Shown one piece after another: positions 19,948-38,550 of a DNA stretch of 64,000 nt. The notes beneath the pieces were generated by a model that was given only the letters and a program-made list of their open reading frames with translations, did no database searches and was not told the DNA's origin. The stretch is taken from contig OW028576.1 of the NCBI GenBank assembly GCA_932294295.1, positions 48,998,199 through 49,062,198 on the forward strand, in the 5' to 3' direction. A program made the translations under genes and the position numbers. The DNA is from Alitta virens (taxonomy: Eukaryota; Annelida; Polychaeta; Phyllodocida; Nereididae). Position 1 is the stretch's first letter, and each line of letters starts with the position of its first letter.

Positions 19948-22944
19948 GCAGGGAAGTTTAAGGTTGTTACGTTACACAACAGTCATGAAGTCAACCAGCG
20001 GAAATCTGTTGACAGTCTACACTCGTCTGCTACAGGCGCACAGCCAAAGTCTACGATTGACAATGTAGCTGACTTGATGAAACTATATCCACAACAATTC
20101 GATAGGATTGGAAACATGTCCACACACACTTTAAAAAATAGGAATGACATGCAGAGTCATGTTGATGCACCCAGATGTATTCCGCTTGCTCTTAAAGACA
20201 AGATAAAACAAGAACTCGATAAGATGGTTAATGACGGAGTCATTCGTAAAATCCAAGAGCCAACGGAATGGGTGAGCTCGATAACGTATGTCACCAAGAA
20301 AGACGGATCACTGCGGATGTGTTTAGACCCAAGAGCTCTCAATAAAGCACTCATTCGACCGTATCACCAAATGACCACAGTAGAAGAGTTAAACCACCGT
20401 TTCAGTGGAGCAAGATACTTCTCAAAGTTAGATGCCAAATCGGGGTATTGGGCAATATCTCTAGATGAGGAAAGCCAGAAACTGACTACTTTTGGCACCC
20501 CTTTTGGACGTTACTGCTTTAGAAGGCTTCCATTCGGTTTAAGTGTGAGCCAAGACATATTCCAGATGGAAATGGATAATATCTTAGAAAAATGCTCAGG
20601 AACATGCGGCATAGCAGATGATGTCATAGTGTATGGAAAAACTGAGTCTGAGCACGACAACAATCTCAGAAGCTTCATGAAGATTTCAAGTGAGCAGGGA
20701 CTGACATTGAATTCCACCAAGTGTGAGATCAAAAAGAGTAGCATTTCCTTCTTTGGAAATGTATATTCATCAGAAGGTATGAAACCAGACCCACAGAAGG
20801 TCAACAACCTTATGAACATGTCAAGTCCAACAAATAAGAAAGAAATGCAACAATGCCTGGGTTTCCTGAACTATTTGTCTAGGTTCGTGAAAGATTTCAG
20901 CACAAAGATAGCTCCTCTGAGAGAACTCTTGGGACAAGACAATGTATTCGTTTGGGACAGTAATCAGGAACAATTATTTACGTCCATCAAGAACGAAATC
21001 TCCCAAGCATCAGCGTTACAATATTTTGATGTGAGCAAACCCGTATATCTGCATTGTGACGCCAGTCAGAAGGGGGTCGGCACTGCATTACTGCAACCAA
21101 GTGACAGTGGAGACCTGCGTCCAGTTGCATATGCAAGCAAGAGCCTGACAAGTACAGAACAGTGATATGCATGTATAGAGCGTGAACTGTTGAGTATTGT
21201 GTTTGCTACACAGAGATTCCATCAGTACTTGTATGGCAGAAGATTTCACGTGGTGACAGACCATAAACCACTAGTGATGATATTGGATAAGCCAATTAAG
21301 AATGTACCGGCAAGATTGCAGCGTATGATTATAGCGTTGCAAGGATACAACTTTGACATTTCCCATCAGAGTGGTGCTACAAACTTATTGGCAGATGCGT
21401 TATCTAGATTTCCCAGTTCACCTGAAGGAATAAGCATTGAACTTGACGTAAGGGTTGACCACATTAGATTTTCAAGTAGGAAAATAGAGAAGTTAAAAGA
21501 AGAAACCACCGTGGATCATATGCTTAACCATCTAAAAGAAGTGATAGTTACTGGATGGCCGTCAACTATCAAAGAGTTACCTACAGAAATTAGAAGCTAC
21601 TGGAGTATACGAGACCAGTTAGTAGTGGATGATGGACTTATCCTCAAGGGTCAACAAATTCTGATTCCAGCATGTATGCAGAAAGAAATTCTTAATGAGC
21701 TACACATAGCGCATATGGGTGTGGATAAAACGAAACTCCTAGCCAGAGACACAGTGTTTTGGACAAACATTAATAAGGATATAGAGAATTTCATCAAGAA
21801 ATGCTCGATACGTCAATATCATCAAACTTCACAAGCCCCCGAACCTCTAATGCCACACGAAGTACCATCTCGCCCATGGTGTGTACTTGGCATTGACATT
21901 TTTGACAACTCTCAGTGGCTGATGATCGCAGATTACTACAGAAAGTATCCATTTATTAGAAAAATGCCAAATCCCGCTCCCAGTAGTTCCGTTATAGACA
22001 TTTTGAAACACTTATTCTCCGAAATGGGAATCCCTGACAAGATTGTAAGTGACAACGGACCTCATTTCTCAAGTGTCTCATTTAGCAAGTTTGCTGAATG
22101 TTGGGGTTTCAAGCATGTTACTTCAGCACCTAGAAGACCACAGGGAAATGGTTATGTCGAGAGACAAATACGAACTGTCAAAATGATTATGGAGAAAGCT
22201 AGAGAATCGCAGACAGACATTCGATTAGCACTCTTGCAACTTAGAGCAACACGTGTCACTTCTTCAATCGCAAGCCCAGCTCAATTGCTGTTGGGAAGAA
22301 AAATCAGATCATCCGTGACGACACGAATCCGTTCAGAAGATCGCAATCAAGATGATATACAGAACGCACTACAGAAACGCACAGATACGCAGAAGTTATA
22401 CTTTGATAGAAAAGCCCGTAAAGACGACCTCCCACCACTGTACCCAGGGCAACAAGTTCGTATTCAAGACCAAACAACACAGTGTTGGAAACCAGCAGTC
22501 GTGAAATCTACAGATCACCAGAGATCGTACATTGTACAAGATCAACATGGCAGATCGCTCAGAAGAAATAGACAACATATTTGTGAAAGTGTGAGCTCAA
22601 ACGTTCCTGTAGTTGACAATCGGTCAACAACACAATCACGTTCAAGTGCACCAGAGACGGTTTGTCGTGATGATACAGTTAGATCACAAGAGACTGTTCA
22701 AAATCAAGAGACTGTTCGTGCAAACATTCATGTAATACCCGATGTTATTACAAGCAATCCTTCAACAGAGACTGTCTTATCTAGTGAAACAGTTCCTGGT
22801 CAAATTGTATCAGAAGCTGTCAGTGCAGAAACTGTAACAACCAATTCTTCGGGTAAATCGAAGAATGAAGTACCAAGTTCTACACCAGAAAAAAGAACAC
22901 GCTCAGGAAGAATTATCAAGAAGCCAGCGAAATTGGACTGTTAA
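19948..22944 (+). pseudogene. Ty3/gypsy pol (RT-RNase H-integrase), single in-frame stop
   Basis: One reading frame covers reverse transcriptase, RNase H and integrase. RT: LDAKSGYWAISLDEES, LPFGLSVSQDIFQ and the catalytic GIADDVIVYG, the ADD variant seen in some gypsy clades. RNase H: VYLHCDASQKGVG and VVTDHKPL. Integrase: a zinc-binding region (LHIAHMG) whose final cysteine pair reads CSIR, so the second Cys is lost. Its core has D, D (IVSDNGPHFSS) and E (PQGNGYVERQ). A TGA at 21163-21165 interrupts the frame inside RNase H, just after SLTSTEQ. Gag and protease are missing: the frame opens only at 19948 after a TGA. The element is inactive but fairly young, having one nonsense change over 3 kb. 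Confidence 0.92.
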
Positions 22945-24280: not shown

Positions 24281-25916
24281 TTATTCTCCGCTCATTTGAT
24301 CACTAGCTTTTTTATATGCACTCTTCAACTTGTCAGCAAGGTCAGAATAATCATTCTCCAAGGATTCGATGAAATGGTGAAATGCTTCAACATCTTTGGT
24401 ACAAATGATATCCAACAGCTTTCCTGTCCGAACAATTGTTGCTGGTTCGTGAAGTAATTCTTCCTTCAGGCGAAGATTGATGATATCATACTGCTGCATA
24501 TGTGGTAGGATGTATCGAATGTTGAGATATTCAACAATCTCTACTCTGTGTGTTCGTAAAACCATTACCCAAATTGGTTCGTTGCCTGGATTTCCAGAAA
24601 TCTCCATGCCATCTACCACCTTTGACAGTTGCATTTCTTCTTCCATAGCTGCAGAAGCTCCTGCGGAGTTTGATGAAGTATTGAGTGTTTCATCATGAGC
24701 AGAAGTCGGGCAACTTGATGCATAATCTCTCTGTAGTTCTGAACCAATACTAGGATACTTTATAATCAAAGATTTCACGAATAATTGGAAAGCTTTCCAG
24801 CCTTTCCCAGAAATATAATCCAACAGCTTTCCTGCTTGTTCTTGCTTGGCTGAAATTGAAAGCAAATTTTCTTGTTCAGCGACATTCAGGACACCATCCT
24901 GACGCAAGTAATCCAGGATTTCCTTGACATCTAGTTTGTTTGTGACTCGTTCTCTGTTCCTCTGTAGGACCTTCTCCCAAACAGATAATTTTTCCTGATT
25001 TTGAGGAATCTCCAAAGTGATTTCGCAAATGTCTTGCTCCGGAAAAACAGCATCCAATCTTCGACGAATATGCAATTTCTTGGGATGATAATCAGTGCTC
25101 TGGGTGAGAAATGGAACTTCAATATATTGACCATCCTGTTCACATTCACTAAGTTGGAAAGAGCATGCCTTAGCCAAATTTGGAGAGGTGTTATAGTAAA
25201 ACAAGAACCTTTCATCCTCAATAATGTGATATTGAGATGTTCCCCTTCCAACCGTGGTGTAGTCAGAGTCCCTGAGATTTAAGTCAAATTTTTGGCTCTT
25301 CTGTTGCTGTTGCGCTTGGAGGACTACTACCACCAAATTACATTCAGTGGGTTTGAAGTACACATTAAAGTTGCAGTGAGCATGTCGACTATTGAGCAAG
25401 GCACGTACTTTATATCCAACAGCGAATCCAACACCTGCACTTAGTACAGTCACTGGTAGAAGCAGTTTGATTGTTTCAATGAGAGAAAAGTGGTTGACAA
25501 AAAAAACGTAAGCACCATCTCGGATTTCTGGGTTGGATTCCTGGGTGATATCATTCCATTCAGTTTCTTGAGCACGCTTTACTTCCTTGTGGAACACCAA
25601 CAATTTGAAATTTTCAGTCGCAGCCTGGTTTCCTATTTCAAATTGTATTGCATGGCGAAATCTTTGCCCATGTGGTTCTAAGCGTAAACAAATTCCAGGC
25701 TGTACAAATTCATGGAATCCAGCAGACTTGATTTGTTGTTGTCTTGATTCAGTATTGTCTATCATTGCTACTGACATCATTATGTCTGTATTCAAAGCCT
25801 TTGGAGGTACCCTTATGCCAACATGATTAAGGATCAAGTAACCTCCTGACTCATCAATGCGTTTTCTTTGCCCTACATGTGTTACGTTATCCTCAGTCCA
25901 TTTCTTTGTAATATAT
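24281..25916 (-). CDS. Terminal exon: ZU5-UPA (FIIND-like) plus two CARDs
   Basis: Acceptor TTATTTGCAG at 25917-25926; stop at 24281. The first 26 residues precede the frame start at 25837 and lead into the ZU5 signature SGGYLILNHVGIRVPPKAL. The ZU5 domain continues through CLRLEPHGQRFRHAIQFEI. It ends in NHFSLI, where HFS (25484-25492) matches the autoproteolysis site of PIDD and the FIIND family. About 150 residues of beta-rich UPA-type sequence follow. CARD 1 (about 286-372 counted from 25837) has ILDYLRQDGVLNVAEQENLL and LLDYISGKGWKAFQLFVKSL. CARD 2 (about 422-509) has VEIVEYLNIRYI and LLDIICTKDVEAFHHFIESL. A polar linker of about 50 residues separates them. A hydrophobic stretch after HFS (IKLLLPVTVLSAGVGFAVGY) could be mistaken for a membrane segment. 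The architecture predicts cleavage, then CARD-driven signalling. Confidence 0.85.
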
Positions 25917-26141
25917 CTGCAAATAAATTGTAGCGATGCTTATAAAAACAGTTACTATAACTTCTAAATGGAAAGTGTTTTTTTGTAGTTATAAAGATGA
26001 ATTATGATTAATTGGACTCAAGACAAACAAGCTTGAAAATGTTGCATGGAGAACTGAGCTGGTAATTTCACTGGATTGATATTACAAGTACTAAGCAAAA
26101 ATCACCTGATACAACATTTAAATATGTGATTAGATACTTAC

Positions 26142-28934
26142 AGGGGTTCTGTTGCTCCTGCCCTTGCAAGATGAGCATCAGCACCCTTCTGGAGAAATAT
26201 CTCTTCAAGCTGCAAAAATTTCTTTTTTCTGTGTGGGTCATTCTCCCATCTTGCTTTGCCTGTTAAAATCCAGGAGAATGGAGTTGAGGTGTGTTCATAT
26301 CCAGCATTCACATTGTCAGGTGAGACGAGATTAGGAAAAAGGGGCAATAGTTTGTCTGCTGCATCTGGATGTTCACAAATGTTTTTAGCAAAGATATGCA
26401 GTGGAGTCCTCCCATCGTAGTCCTGAATATTCACATTCTCAGATGTTGTGAGATTAGGAATGAGGGGCAATAGTTTGTCTGCTGCATCTGGATGTTCACA
26501 AATGCCGATTGATAGGATATGCAGTGGGGTCATCCCAGATAAGTCTTGAATATTCACGTTCTCAGATGTTGTTAGATCAGGAACGAGGGGCATAAGTTTG
26601 TCTGCTGCATCTGTATATTTACAAATGCCCATTAATAGGATATGCAGAGGAGTCTTCCAAACACAGTCTCTGACATTCACATTTTCCAGTGTTGTAAGAT
26701 TTGGAAAGAGGGGCAATAGTTTGTCTACTGCATCTGGATGTTCACAAATGCCAATTAATAGGATATGCAGAGGAGTCCTCCAAACACAGTCTATGGCATT
26801 CACATTTTCCAGTGTTGTAAGATTTGGAAAGAGGGGCAATAGCATGTCTGCTGCTTCTGGATGTTCACAAATGCCTTTGGCAAAGATATGCAGGGGAGTC
26901 CTCGAATCACAGTCTTGAATATTCACGTTCTCAGCTGTGGTGAGATTAGGAATGAGGGGCAATAGTTTGTCTGCTGCATCTGGATGTTCACAAATGCCAA
27001 TTAATAGGATATGCAGAGGAGTCCTCCAAACACAGTCTCTGACATTCACATTTTCCAGTGTTGTAAGATTTGGAAAGAGGGGCAATAGTTTGTCTACTGC
27101 ATCTGGATGTTTACAAATGCCAATTAATAGGATATGCAGGGGAGTCCTCGAAACACAGTCTATGGCATTCACATTTTCCAGTGTTGTAAGATTTGGAATG
27201 AGGGGCAATAGTTTGTCTGCTGCATCTGGATGTTCACAAATACCAATTAATAGGATATGCAGAGGAGTCCTCCAAACACAGTCTATGGCATTTACATTTT
27301 CCAGTGATGTAAGATTAGGAATGAGGGGCAATAGTTTGTCTGTTGCTTCTGGATGTTCACAAATGGCTTTGGCAAAGATATGCAGGGGAGTCCTCGAATC
27401 ACAGTCTTTAATATTCACGTTCTCAGATGTTGTAAGATTAGGAATGAGGGGCAATAGTTTGTCTGTTGCTTCTGGATGTTCACAAATGGCTTTGGCAAAG
27501 ATATGCAGGGGAGTCCTCGAATCACAGTCTTTAATATTCACGTTCTCAGATGTTGTAAGATTAGGAATGAGGGGCAATAGTTTGTCTGCTGCATCTGGAT
27601 GTTCACAAATGCCAATTGATAGGATATGCAGAGGAGTCCTCCAAATAAAGTCTATGGCATTCACATTTTCCAGTGTTGTAAGATTTGGAAAGAGGGGCAA
27701 TAGCATGTCTGCTGCTTCTGGATGTTCACAAATGCCTTTGGCAAAGATATGCAGGGGAGTCCTCGAATCACAGTCTTGAATATTCACGTTCTCAGCTGTG
27801 GTGAGATTAGGAATGAGGGGCAATAGTTTGTCTGCTGCATCTGGATGTTCACAAATGCCAATTAAAAGGCTATGCAGAGGAGTCCTCGAATCACAGTCTG
27901 TGGCATTCACATTTTCCAGTGTTGTTAGATTTGGAATGAGGGGCAATAGCATGTCTGCTGCTTCTGGATGTTCACAAATGCCAATTAAAAGGCTATGCAG
28001 AGGAGTCCTCGAATCACAGTCTGTGGCATTCACATTTTCCAGTGTTGTTAGATTTGGAATGAGGGGCAATAGCATGTCTGCTGCTTCTGGATGTTCACAA
28101 ATGCCAATTAAAAGGCTATGCAGAGGAGTCCTCGAATCACAGTCTGTGGCATTCACATTTTCCAGTGTTGTTAGATTTGGAATGAGGGGCAATAGCATGT
28201 CTGCTGCTTCTGGATGTTCACAAATGCCAATTAAAAGGCTATGCAGAGGAGTCCTCGAATCACAGTCTGTGGCATTCACATTTTCCAGTGTTGTTAGATT
28301 TGGAATGAGGGGCAATAGCATGTCTGCTGCTTCTGGATGTTCACAAATGCCAATTAAAAGGCTAAGCAGAGGAGTCCTCCAAATACAGTCTATGGCATTC
28401 ACATTTTCCAGTGTTGTAAGATTTGGAAAGAGGGGCAATAGCATGTCTGCTGCTTCTGGATGTTCACAAATGCCTTTTGCTAAGATATGCAGTGGAGTCC
28501 TCCCATCACAGTCTTGAATATTCACGTTCTCAGCTGTTGTGAGATTAGGAATGAAGGGTATAAGTTTGCCTGCTGCATCTGGATGTTCACAAATTAATTT
28601 GAGCAATGCATGAATGACAGTGTATTTTGATTCTTTGTGATTGAGGAATAATGGGAGGAGTTCCATCAATTCAGTGGCAAGATGCTTCTCATTAGCAAGG
28701 ATAAGGAACACTCCCTGAAGAAATCTGTACAATGCCGATTCATTTTGATCCACTGAACCATCATCATCTCTTCCTGAAACTTCATCAGATTCCCCTGGCA
28801 TCCATGTTGGATCTGCTCCTGCCTTGAGCAGCATTTTTAAGATGTCTATGAACTCATTTGTCCACTGGAGGTTATCCCACTGCCTCCCAGATGTATATTC
28901 TGCATTCATGAGGAGCAGCCGCAGGTACTTTGAT
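26142..28934 (-). CDS. Large exon with nineteen 41-residue ankyrin-type repeats
   Basis: Acceptor TTTTCCACAG at 28935 and following; donor GTAAGT at 26141. It is 2,793 nt, one base plus 930 codons plus two. It opens with SKYLRLLLMNAEY and an ankyrin-like LLKAGADPTW. From residue 105 to 883 (counting from 28909) it is a tandem array of GICEHP.AAD.LLP..PNLT, then ENVN..D....TPLH. The TPLH and ENVN..D elements are ankyrin; the eight extra residues lie in the CEHP..A..LLPL..NL helix region. It ends QKGADAHLARAGATEP. Four central units (27860-28351) are identical in protein and apparently in DNA. Reverse-strand frames also stay open across the array because the 123-bp unit is a multiple of three; they are not genes. 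The repeats probably form the recognition or scaffolding surface. Confidence 0.88.
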
Positions 28935-29866: not shown

Positions 29867-30059
29867 CTGTATTATCTGAATGAAATAAGTCGATTCTTTC
29901 AGCCTGCTCCCCTTCCTTATCATCATCATGAAAACCTCTGGGTCTCCTTCCAGAATCTTTGATCCAACGTCTATGAGCAGGTCCAGAATTCTTTGTCCGT
30001 GGTCATCCAGGTCTTCCTTTTTCTGAAGCTTTTCTATGATCGCCTTCGTCTCCAAATGC
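29867..30059 (-). CDS. Helical linker exon (second copy)
   Basis: Acceptor GAAATTTCAG; donor GTATGC. The 193 nt (one base plus 64 codons) encode a charged helical segment with KKEDLDDHGQRILDLLIDVG and an end reading ESTYFIQIIQ. It shares the pattern (K.EDLD...ILDLL, then ES..Y.IIQ directly before a GTATGC donor) with the exon at 38355-38550. The two are diverged duplicates. No known domain is recognised. Confidence 0.68.
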
Positions 30060-31162: not shown

Positions 31163-32287
31163 TGAATAACAGAATATCCTATTTTTGCAAGATCCGCATC
31201 AGCTTCATTCCGGAGTACGACATCTTCAATTTCAGAAAAGATGTCAGCGTCCGAACCCGTTTGTCGGCATTCCCACTTTCCTTTTAAGATCCAGCTGTAT
31301 GGCGTCACTGAGTGCTCATCTGGGATATTTACATTTTGCGATGATGTTACTACTGGAAAAATTGCCTTAATGTCCTTTCCTAGGCCTGGATTCAACGCCA
31401 CCTTTTCTGTGAGAACATGCAGAGCAGTACGTCCTTGGTTGTCTTGAATTTCAATGTTTGATTCAGTTGCAAATATCTTAAAAACATCACAGAATATTTC
31501 CAGGCTATGCTCCTGAATATCTTTCACAAACTTTCCTGCTAATATGTGCAGAGGTGTCTGTCCATTGCTATCCCGAGCATCAATGTTGGAATCAGATGTA
31601 AGACACTTGACAAGGTCAAGAAATGCCTGATGCCCATTTTGAGATATGGCCTTGTGAAATACCGGCAATGCCTCTGTAAGGTAATGTACAACAGTTTTGC
31701 CGTCAATATTTTTACTGTTAATGTTGTCATCTGATCTCAGTAGAAGTACTATGTCTCTCACATGTTCTATGATGTTCTCTTGCAGTTTCATGCCCTGAAT
31801 AAACCAATGCAATGGGATATCACCATTACAGTTGGTCATATCAACAATGCCAGGGTTACGTGTTATGACTTGGGAAATTAATGTCTTGTATTGATGAAAG
31901 AAATCATCAGGTAAGTGTACAACTTCTCTGTTTAACGAATCCCAGCCAAATTCAACAAATGCATCGAGTGAAGTGCCCTGGAAATAGTCCTGGTTGGATT
32001 CCATGGGAGACAGAAACAAGGGCAAGATGTCCATTAAGGAACTGAAGAGGTGATTCTTGAACATAAGAACATGTTGGATGGCCCTGAAGAACACATACTG
32101 AGCAGAGCTATCCTTCAAGAATTGCCATTGAGGCATCCAGGCGGGATCTGCTTCATTCTCTAGTAGAACTTTCAAAGTAACAAGGAATTCTTCTGTCCAC
32201 TGAATGAAACAGTCTGTGCTTAGTTTTGATTGTCTTGGTGGCTTTGCATACTCTGAATTCATAAGGAGGATTTGCAGACACTTGCTC
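31163..32287 (-). CDS. First ankyrin exon, degenerate repeats
   Basis: Acceptor CATTTCAG; donor GTAAGT; 1,125 nt with the same start and end phase as the large ankyrin exon. It opens SKCLQILLMNSEY and has a LLENEADPAWMP box, clearly homologous to SKYLRLLLMNAEY and LLKAGADPTWMP. About five irregular ankyrin units follow (NGDIPLHWFI, DGKTVVHYL, NGQTPLHILAG, QGRTALHVLTE, HSVTPYSWILKG), with repeat lengths of 40 or more. It ends NEADADLAKIGYSVI, again matching the other exon. This looks like the ancestral, non-homogenised version of the array. Confidence 0.83.
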
Positions 32288-32418: not shown

Positions 32419-32453
32419 CTTGACTTTTCATCGACTTCTAAGGGCGTCAGTGT
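32419..32453 (-). CDS. 35-nt exon preceding the first ankyrin exon
   Basis: TTTTTTCAG acceptor and GTGAGT donor; encodes TLTPLEVDEKS plus two bases of an Arg codon. Twin of the exon at 29056-29090. Confidence 0.62.
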
Positions 32454-32799: not shown

Positions 32800-32931
32800 C
32801 AGGACAAGAGAAAGGAGTTTCTGTTGACCAGCGCACAACGCTTTAGTATGGTCGTCAATCTGCTTCACCAACCACTCAAGAGGTCCTTTTGATGGCTTAT
32901 GAGGAATGGTTTTGTACAGGAAGGCCATTTT
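32800..32931 (-). CDS. 44-codon helical exon
   Basis: Acceptor TTGTTTCAG, donor GTGAGT, phase 0 on both sides. It encodes KMAFLYKTIPHKPSKGPLEW and then a helix with QIDDHTKAL and QQKLLSLVL. It contains an ATG as its second codon, so a shorter transcript could start here. The phase also fits joining to the exon at 38355-38550. Function unknown. Confidence 0.6.
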
Positions 32932-33519: not shown

Positions 33520-33987
33520 CTAGTGATGGATGAGAGGCTGTGAGCCCGAGGCTAGCCTAGCTGACACCTGAGCAGACTGGATCAGAGAAGGGCAGATGTA
33601 CACCCTAAAGGCAGCGGATCGCCACCTACTCAGCTGCTGAATATCTGATTCAGTGAAAGCAAGTTGGGCAGCGTCTGTGGCCGCACCAACCCTGAGGGAA
33701 TGGGGTGTAACTCTATGAGATGGATGACCTGCGATGCTGCAAAATCTCTTCAAGGCGGCCGATGGCGCCTGATGGGTGAGTGGAGAGCCATCCAAAAATC
33801 TAAAAAGCAGGGTATGAACTAGAAATGGACGAATGGTGATATAAGCTCTCGAAGTACAATGAGCACAAACTAGAGATCCAGAACAGCCCACTATGACCTC
33901 GAAGCCTTGAACTGATGCCTTAGATGAGGCAATGCGAAGCGTAAAATAAGGCGGCTGTGTATTGGAGATGAAGTGTACAGAAGACAC
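33520..33987 (-). pseudogene. Tyrosine recombinase of the DIRS-like element
   Basis: The C-terminal catalytic boxes are visible: HSLRVGAATDAAQLA (the HxxR box) and RWRSAAFRVYI, with the nucleophile Tyr. The upstream part carrying the first catalytic Arg is not clear. The ORF has a TTG-type start in the track frame, so it is probably the 3' part of a longer broken frame. Confidence 0.85.
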
Positions 33988-34651
33988 AAGGAGTGGGACG
34001 TCCGGGCAAAGTAGGCCACATCAAGTTATCAATACTGTATGGCAAACATCAATAAATTATAAGCAACATAGATACTGAGACGGGCTGAGCTTGAACCGGA
34101 GCTGGCGTGGAACGCTCAACAGCTCTAAGGGCCCACTTGACTCTGGGAGAGTAAATGTCGGGACAGGGGGCGTAATGAGCCAGGCCCGAACCCCCGACAA
34201 ATAAACCTTGATGGTAGAGAGCTGCAAAGACAAGGAAGCAGATGAGCTAGTAATATGAGCGTCTCAGATAAATTGAGTGGATATAAATAATAAGATTTAC
34301 TGGAGACACCTATGAACTGGGGCTGAATATGATCTGCGTGAATTATAAGCCAGCCCGGAGCCCACCAAGTGGGAAACATGAGAGTCCGAGGCTGAAAGAG
34401 ATAAAAACATCCCTCAGACAGGCTGACCATAGTAATCGAAGGGGGCAGGCCAGACAGGCCTGCGCTCCCTGGTGGAGAGAGTGTGAAATTCGACCAACTC
34501 CCTCTACTGAGAAGATCTGCCTCGACATTGAGATGGGTAGAGATATATACTACGGCTACCTCTGAAATAGCTCAATAAGCACACCAATGTCTAACTGACT
34601 CGAGAAGTGACTGTATTATCTATATGAAACAACACTTTGGCGCATCGAAGA

Positions 34652-38354: not shown

Positions 38355-38550
38355 CTGAATAATGTGGCAGTATCTTTCAGATTCTATCATCCAGGGAGCT
38401 TTCATAACCATGATCTTGAAGATAGTTGGATACTCCTGGAGAGTCCATGCTGAGTGATTGTTGAGCAATTGCAAGATTCTATCTTCCACAGCACTGTCAA
38501 GATCTTCTGGTTTTCTCAGGTACAAAGTTAACTTTCTCAGCTCTGAATAC
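38355..38550 (-). CDS. Helical linker exon (first copy) with two possible donors
   Basis: Acceptor CATGCTTTAG; 196 nt, one base plus 65 codons. It encodes YSELRKLTLYLRKPEDLDSA, ILQLLNNHSAW and an end WMIESERYCHIIQ. A GTATGC donor follows. An 81-bp in-frame duplication of the exon end plus donor lies immediately downstream, so a second donor ends the exon at 38274 and would add 27 residues. Related to 29867-30059. Confidence 0.66.

Follow-up and report, generated by a model that had tools for sequence, protein, structure and literature searches.

A candidate autoproteolytic ankyrin–ZU5–CARD–CARD gene in the annelid Alitta virens

We analysed a stretch of 64,000 nucleotides from the polychaete Alitta virens (GenBank assembly GCA_932294295.1, contig OW028576.1, positions 48,998,199 to 49,062,198 of the forward strand; hereafter the window), whose minus strand carries a gene in which ankyrin (ANK) exons are joined to a terminal exon for ZU5, a UPA-like region and two CARDs. 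On balance, and with confidence a little above even, we read this gene as a putative intracellular autoproteolytic sensor of the order [M-B-ANK1]-[A-B-ANK2]-ZU5-UPA-CARD-CARD that would signal through released CARDs. Its exon structure, its frame, its domains with the exception of UPA, an HFS motif at the end of ZU5 and the conservation of Phe and Ser at that site are established here.

Results

Exon structure and the join to the terminal exon

The gene has seven exons with 1982 sense codons counted from the start of exon M, and its sole stop is terminal. As the first ATG is codon 2 of exon M, the protein would have about 1981 amino acids. The splice sites are canonical, their phases match, and the frame is open across all seven exons. 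The features of the gene, in window coordinates, are as follows.

32800..32931, minus strand: exon M, probable first coding exon (KMAFLYK...), ATG at 32928-32926, in frame with the later exons
32419..32453, minus strand: exon B1, 35 bp (TLTPLEVDEKS), AG/GTGAGT
31163..32287, minus strand: ANK1 exon, end CA/GTAAGT in phase 2, Ank_2 match (2.7e-8), member of a large genome family and subject of the donor test below
29867..30059, minus strand: exon A, 64 amino acids, phase 2 to phase 0, homologues at 38550-38355 and in locus L048
29056..29090, minus strand: exon B2, 35 bp (ILSAIVVSDLSK), equal in length to B1
26142..28934, minus strand: ANK2 exon, an array of 18 full 41-residue units and a degenerate last one behind an N-terminal part, phase-2 donor GTAAGT
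25917..26141, minus strand: intron of 225 bp between the ANK2 and ZU5 exons
24281..25916, minus strand: terminal exon with ZU5, UPA-like region, CARD, CARD and stop TAA
25484..25861, minus strand: ZU5 domain with HFS at its end, Pfam ZU5 E 0.006-0.027 (below cut-off; paralogues above it)
25484..25492, minus strand: HFS motif with the predicted self-cut between its Phe and its Ser, conserved in the family and known from PIDD (PMC3210808, available part)
24986..25486, minus strand: UPA-like region, assigned by position and conservation within the family
24731..24973, minus strand: CARD 1, Pfam match, block with predicted local distance difference test (pLDDT) values of 67-84 in a single-sequence model
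24323..24562, minus strand: CARD 2, 34% identical to CARD 1 over 59 residues

The ANK2 exon (28934-26142) ends ..CCCCT/GTAAGTAT with the phase-2 donor GTAAGT, and the terminal exon starts at 25916 behind an acceptor AG that takes phase 2 (..TTTATTTGCAG/ATATATT). CT and A form a Leu codon across the junction of 26142 and 25916, and the joined frame stays open until the TAA at 24281. The initial annotation had claimed this join, and its coordinates, splice sites, phase and uninterrupted frame all hold. Its interval (24281..28934) contains the join, and the gene extends beyond it to exon M at 32931. The first Met in the open reading frame (ORF) of the terminal exon appears only at residue 54, within ZU5, and the exon therefore needs an upstream exon. 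In 300 mononucleotide shuffles of the terminal exon no open run exceeded 188 codons, versus 552 in the real sequence; the open frame is not due to chance. Splice sites and frame together make the join of the ANK2 exon to the terminal exon well supported.

The upstream exons recur elsewhere in the genome. A homologue of exon M with the same K-M-A start precedes an ANK1-type exon at L048, and a 35-bp exon stands at the place of B1 in all six ANK1-type loci examined, the window locus included. A second A-type exon lies on the same strand at 38355-38550 of the window (34% identical to exon A, E 5e-4) and may be a remnant of another module.

ZU5 domain and the predicted cleavage site

HFS occurs once in the terminal exon, at residues 143-145 of 545, where ZU5 ends. 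Of the shuffled sequences, 4.6% had the motif at any position and 0.4% had it between residues 126 and 166. The genome carries 16 further ZU5-type places (what remains of 19 match rows once the window's own, one match to CARD only and the second piece of L002 are set aside), and the family is 25-59% identical to the window copy. At the aligned cleavage site of these 17 places, which are not independent since several C13 copies are near-identical, Ser is found in all and Phe in 16. The motif reads HFS at four places, SFS at two, QFS at ten and QIS at one (L007). The Ser column is likewise invariant in the family alignment of 15 of the 17 places (L024 and L025 left aside).

According to the available part of PMC3210808, PIDD is cleaved at an HF/S site behind each of its ZU5 domains, and the site in CARD8 and NLRP1 is SF/S. 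The second Ser of the site is required for cleavage, a Phe-to-His change severely impairs it, and at the CARD8 residue preceding Phe an exchange of Ser for Ala slightly lowers cleavage and Gln has no effect; UNC5b has Leu where the others have Phe. The window gene has a site of the SF/S or HF/S type at the same place, the end of ZU5. The predicted autoproteolysis has its best evidence in the constraint on exactly those two residues that the chemistry needs, and this is not proof. Neither the HFS motif nor the ankyrin precedent for the domain order (ANK-ZU5-ZU5-UPA-Death) had been noticed in the initial annotation.

The ZU5 assignment goes through the paralogues. Two paralogous exons score 34.9 and 32.7 bits in a genome-wide ZU5 profile search with a cut-off of 21; the window copy is not among the seven places that this search gives at E up to 0.001. 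Eight of 15 scanned family members match ZU5 at E up to 1, the best at 9.3e-8. A profile of the family's ZU5 part, run against solved sequences at E up to 10, has two matches, both to the ZU5 of ZO-1 (E 0.22 and 0.25), with an alignment that rests on the PHG signature. By way of the two paralogues above the cut-off, the window gene thus appears to carry the ZU5 part of FIIND proteins such as NLRP1 and CARD8.

Directly after the predicted cut lies a hydrophobic stretch at 25415-25471 (residues 150-168, IKLLLPVTVLSAGVGFAVG, mean hydropathy 1.83). It would sit near the new N-terminus of a released fragment.

UPA-like region, CARDs and other domains

A conserved region of UPA's size and place follows ZU5 in the family alignment, and we infer a UPA there from position only. 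The two CARDs are certain. Pfam gives 98.5 bits over two stretches (cut-off 23.9, E 2.3e-28), in agreement with the tandem CARDs of the initial annotation, and the C-terminal CARD of FIIND proteins is thereby present. A single-sequence structure model resolves the CARDs only. The nearest solved structures of CARD 1 are CARD9, CARD11 and, weakly, BCL10, and those of CARD 2 are CARD11, APAF1 and RAIDD.

The gene had been placed outside the NLR family, and no NACHT turned up when exon A, the two ANK exons and the terminal exon were scanned with Pfam. The Pfam scan gave ANK, ZU5, CARD and unrelated weak matches, with no LRR and no Death domain; ZU5 matched once, with no tandem ZU5-ZU5-UPA cassette of the kind found in ankyrins. 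A protein database search with the terminal exon yielded 6349 candidates, none at E 0.001. Five stretches of viral contigs fit a pattern and none is a relative, nor is any of ten stretches of genome contigs; phage records gave no match. NCBIfam and PADLOC gave no family, and in the window neither Rfam at its gathering threshold nor a tRNA scan gave a hit.

Ankyrins have the layout ANK-ZU5-ZU5-UPA-Death (PMC5135030, available part), so the broad layout of the window gene is old. The same layout, together with CARD9 and CARD11 as nearest CARD structures, would fit an uncleaved CARD-coupled scaffold on the ankyrin plan, in which the ANK part binds partners at the membrane or cytoskeleton, ZU5-UPA is structural and the CARDs feed a CARD9/BCL10-like NF-kB pathway. 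We think such a scaffold unlikely. The Phe and Ser of HFS are kept through a divergent family, whereas UNC5b has Leu for Phe (PMC3210808, available part); Pfam finds a single ZU5 and no Death domain; and the ANK array is young and homogenised.

Ankyrin exon families and the splice donor

The array of the ANK2 exon consists of 18 full units, each of exactly 41 residues, and one degenerate unit. Three units are identical in DNA, which indicates that the array grew recently. The mean nonsynonymous (dN) and synonymous (dS) divergences between units are 0.15 and 0.28 (153 pairs), and the units show no sign of diversifying selection in this comparison. At least 188 stretches of the genome match the ANK1 family (110 of 493 candidates scored) and at least 93 match the ANK2 family (49 of 456 scored), mostly on C4, C12 and C13; those ANK2 matches that have no internal stop are open over 241 to 989 residues. 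For 17 of the best 18 ANK1 matches we counted neighbouring ANK2-type exons. Twelve of these places have one on the same strand within 30 kb downstream, with nine distinct ANK2 exons (the window's own included) standing behind the twelve. ANK2 lies additionally upstream at two places, and on the opposite strand within 30 kb at none of the 17. From this recurrence, the order [M-B-ANK1]-[A-B-ANK2] is a recurrent plan.

Read in frame, the ANK2 donor GTAAGT is a stop (xxG TAA). The donor was therefore compared with 27 other ANK-family exon ends, 25 obtained with the ANK1 query and two with the ANK2 query. In each of them a phase-2 GT lies in frame among the last codons as far as the first stop, and in 25 it is of canonical type. 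Read in frame, 20 ends stop first at TAA, five at TGA and two at TAG; G stands directly before this stop in 23 and directly after it in 22. With similar ends collapsed to 19, G precedes in 15 and follows in 14 (p about 8e-9 and 3e-7), where 17% third-position G (window ANK exons) and 19% G (window strand) are expected. One or both G are missing from six of the 27 ends (L053, L063, L064, L065, L067 and L071). The phase-2 GT at 6 of 930 ANK2-exon codons is an unfair control for this test, because every stop starts with T. On these counts the conserved element at the ends of the ANK exons is a donor and not a stop. Simple termination of the ANK exons at the in-frame TAA was rejected, since the stop varies among TAA, TGA and TAG and the donor bases persist. 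We also rejected the YxxKK tails of the ANK exons L064, L065 and L071 as matches to the start of the ZU5 exon; they are intron read-through past a GTATG-type donor.

Two adjacent genes might still be mistaken for one if the ANK gene ended in another terminal exon or ran on into one more ANK module, with a different first exon serving the ZU5-CARD exon. The surroundings of related exons lend this some weight. Other ANK exons keep the donor with no ZU5 match in the 1.4-2.9 kb examined downstream (about 2.9 kb for two, about 1.4 kb for three); the roughly 2.9 kb behind two ANK2-type exons, read by eye, has no recognisable ORF, and the usual terminal exon was not found there. Upstream of the closest ZU5 paralogue, about 8.6 kb likewise contain no ANK exon of this family. 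The intron of only 225 bp, its matching phase and strong donor and acceptor, and the absence of a start codon before the Met inside ZU5 make two genes an improbable account.

Paralogues of the terminal exon

The closest paralogue of the terminal exon, L002, is 58% identical, has two CARDs and offers a phase-2 candidate acceptor. Between the two, dN is 0.28 versus a dS of 0.72, which points to purifying selection on the terminal exon. CARDs are found in four of 15 scanned members, two each in the window copy and L002 and one each in L003 and L004. At L003 an upstream stretch lies in the same ORF as ZU5, has no significant Pfam match and looks like coiled coil by eye. Most simply, a gene of the ANK family would have recruited, or kept, a ZU5-CARD cassette as its terminal exon. 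A recent functionless chimera heading for decay, for which the ANK-ZU5 pairing at one locus and the transposable elements close by (Gypsy-type pol downstream, weak tyrosine-recombinase match upstream) could be cited, is very improbable given seven open exons, 18 repeat units in frame and a terminal exon under purifying selection relative to L002.

Three C13 places have ordinary ankyrin exons 2.8-5.3 kb upstream on the same strand (L016:5584-5895, L019:2868-3170, L020:2686-2988), which suggests that ANK and ZU5 are paired recurrently.

Three copies, L018:8826-9269, L019 and L020 (C13:3010908, 2613070 and 2494712), are ZU5-UPA without CARD. Through the upstream intron and the ZU5 half their identity per 150 bp is 97-100%, and from the QF/S site onward it falls to 80-89%. 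In this hypervariable segment the three pairs have 51:1, 59:0 and 63:3 amino-acid-changing versus silent nucleotides, dN of 0.16-0.20 and dS of 0.03-0.05, with Fisher p of 0.011, 0.0014 and 0.055 for single-change codons (the pairs are not independent). The 3' flanks of L019 and L020 are again 99-100% identical, and that of L018 is unalignable with theirs. L021-L023 were excluded from the claim of diversification, as their frames appear to differ near the end.

Discussion

Proposed mechanism

In the sensor that we favour, the ankyrin array, enlarged recently by duplication of the 41-residue unit, would be the ligand-binding half. ZU5, once folded, would cut the chain at HF/S, and the ANK-ZU5 part would retain the UPA-CARD-CARD fragment of about 401 residues non-covalently. 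Binding, modification or degradation of the ANK half would free the C-terminal fragment, whose tandem CARDs might then nucleate a filament and recruit a CARD partner, either a caspase or a CARD9/BCL10-type pathway. Cleavage, retention of the fragment, release, partner and immune role are all proposed by the logic of the known families.

Several points weigh against this sensor. The exon join is a prediction from genomic sequence. Of the domains that the initial annotation had assigned to the terminal exon, the CARDs stand and ZU5 stands through its paralogues, with the window copy itself at 15.2-17.3 bits against a cut-off of 21. UPA was not recovered: Pfam gives an unusable best UPA-FIIND E of 0.64 in the terminal exon and finds no UPA in ten paralogue segments, and a family-profile search of the PDB did not find it either. 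The single-sequence structure model leaves ZU5-UPA unfolded (pLDDT under 50 over residues 1-311). The pairing of a ZU5 exon with an array of 41-residue units is confined to one locus in the DNA compared. In about 8 kb upstream of the 16 other ZU5 places, no exon of this ANK family occurs at E under 1e-3; three have an ordinary ANK exon of a different family there, and the candidate acceptors of ten other ZU5 paralogues have mixed phases. The gene had also been described as an independent build of the release design, a claim that is weakened by the ankyrin layout (PMC5135030), the sponge ZU5 expansion (PMC3482391) and the TRADD-N fusions (PMC8195603) already on record in the available parts of these papers.

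A more specific proposal, which we put forward only tentatively, is that splicing a member of the very large, repeat-homogenising ANK family to an autocleaving ZU5-UPA-CARD-CARD cassette made a release-type CARD alarm outside the NLRs, and that in this cassette family the released fragment diversifies, not the sensor half. The released fragment is named as the diversifying part because the hypervariable segment, with its almost purely amino-acid-changing differences, begins at the cleavage site in the young CARD-less copies.

If self-cutting at HFS and CARD signalling are true, the functional-degradation design would need no NLR-type sensor, and in another animal lineage the design of NLRP1 and CARD8 would have been coupled to an ankyrin array. 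Alitta virens holds a natural series of copies (HFS, SFS, QFS and one QIS; two, one or no CARD; with or without a nearby ANK exon) that could let cleavage and effector output be compared copy by copy. Receptor diversity may have a candidate source in the very large ANK-exon family, whose members differ in repeat number.

Neighbouring elements and dispersed CARD genes

A two-ORF Gypsy-type pol with reverse transcriptase, RNase H and integrase lies on the plus strand at 19948-22944 of the window, 1.3 kb past the stop of the gene. Upstream, a tyrosine-recombinase match at 33520-34020 is weak, below cut-off and DIRS-like by eye, and it stands between the gene and the A-type exon at 38355-38550.

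Short CARD ORFs with the same scores occur at many places on C1-C14 in types of 103, 108 and 93 amino acids (150 of 272 candidates scored). The 103-residue type is a CARD-only protein of 98 residues when read from its ATG. Six loci of this type among L040-L046 are 98-99.9% identical across the whole 3.2 kb compared, and the seventh, L040, is more diverged. The carrier of these ORFs resembles an element of recent origin, either mobile or derived from a virus. At L031, L034 and L038, CARD exons are in frame with or near SH2-like and tyrosine-kinase sequences read by eye, which suggests CARD-SH2-kinase genes.

Comparison with known systems

Among the listed matches from the CC-licensed PMC literature, no title or abstract describes an ANK-ZU5-CARD protein, an absence that proves little. 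The statements below follow the available parts of the papers cited. FIIND-CARD is known from NLRP1 and some fish NLRPs (PMC11508797), NACHT-Zu5 combinations occur in early animals (PMC12909245), and ZU5 is one of the NACHT partners in cnidarians (PMC8260672). The window gene resembles NLRP1 and CARD8 in having ZU5, then a UPA-like region, a C-terminal CARD and a site of the [HS]FS type at the end of ZU5. It differs from them in its ANK array, which stands in place of NACHT-LRR or a disordered N-terminus, in its two CARDs and in lacking a usable FIIND profile match. With PIDD1 it shares HFS straight after ZU5 and a death-fold C-terminus, whereas PIDD carries two ZU5 (PMC3482391) as well as LRRs and a domain of the Death type (PMC3210808).

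Ankyrin-1, -2 and -3 have an ANK array, ZU5, UPA and a death-fold domain in identical order. Unlike them, the window gene has one ZU5, CARDs in place of Death, units of 41 residues and HFS, and its 18 full units plus the ANK1 exon compare with 24 usual ANK repeats.

Zhang et al. 2012 (PMC3482391) mention an expansion, specific to sponges, of ZU5 proteins that may serve in defence. It is like the present family in being an expanded animal ZU5 family of suspected defence role, the available part of that source giving no architecture; with such an expansion already published, the window gene is not a new kind. TRADD-N proteins carry FIIND or UPA-ZU5, and autoproteolysis is predicted for them (PMC8195603). 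Like the window gene, they combine an autoproteolytic module with death-adaptor domains outside the NLRs, with a TRADD-N adaptor where the window gene has ANK and CARD.

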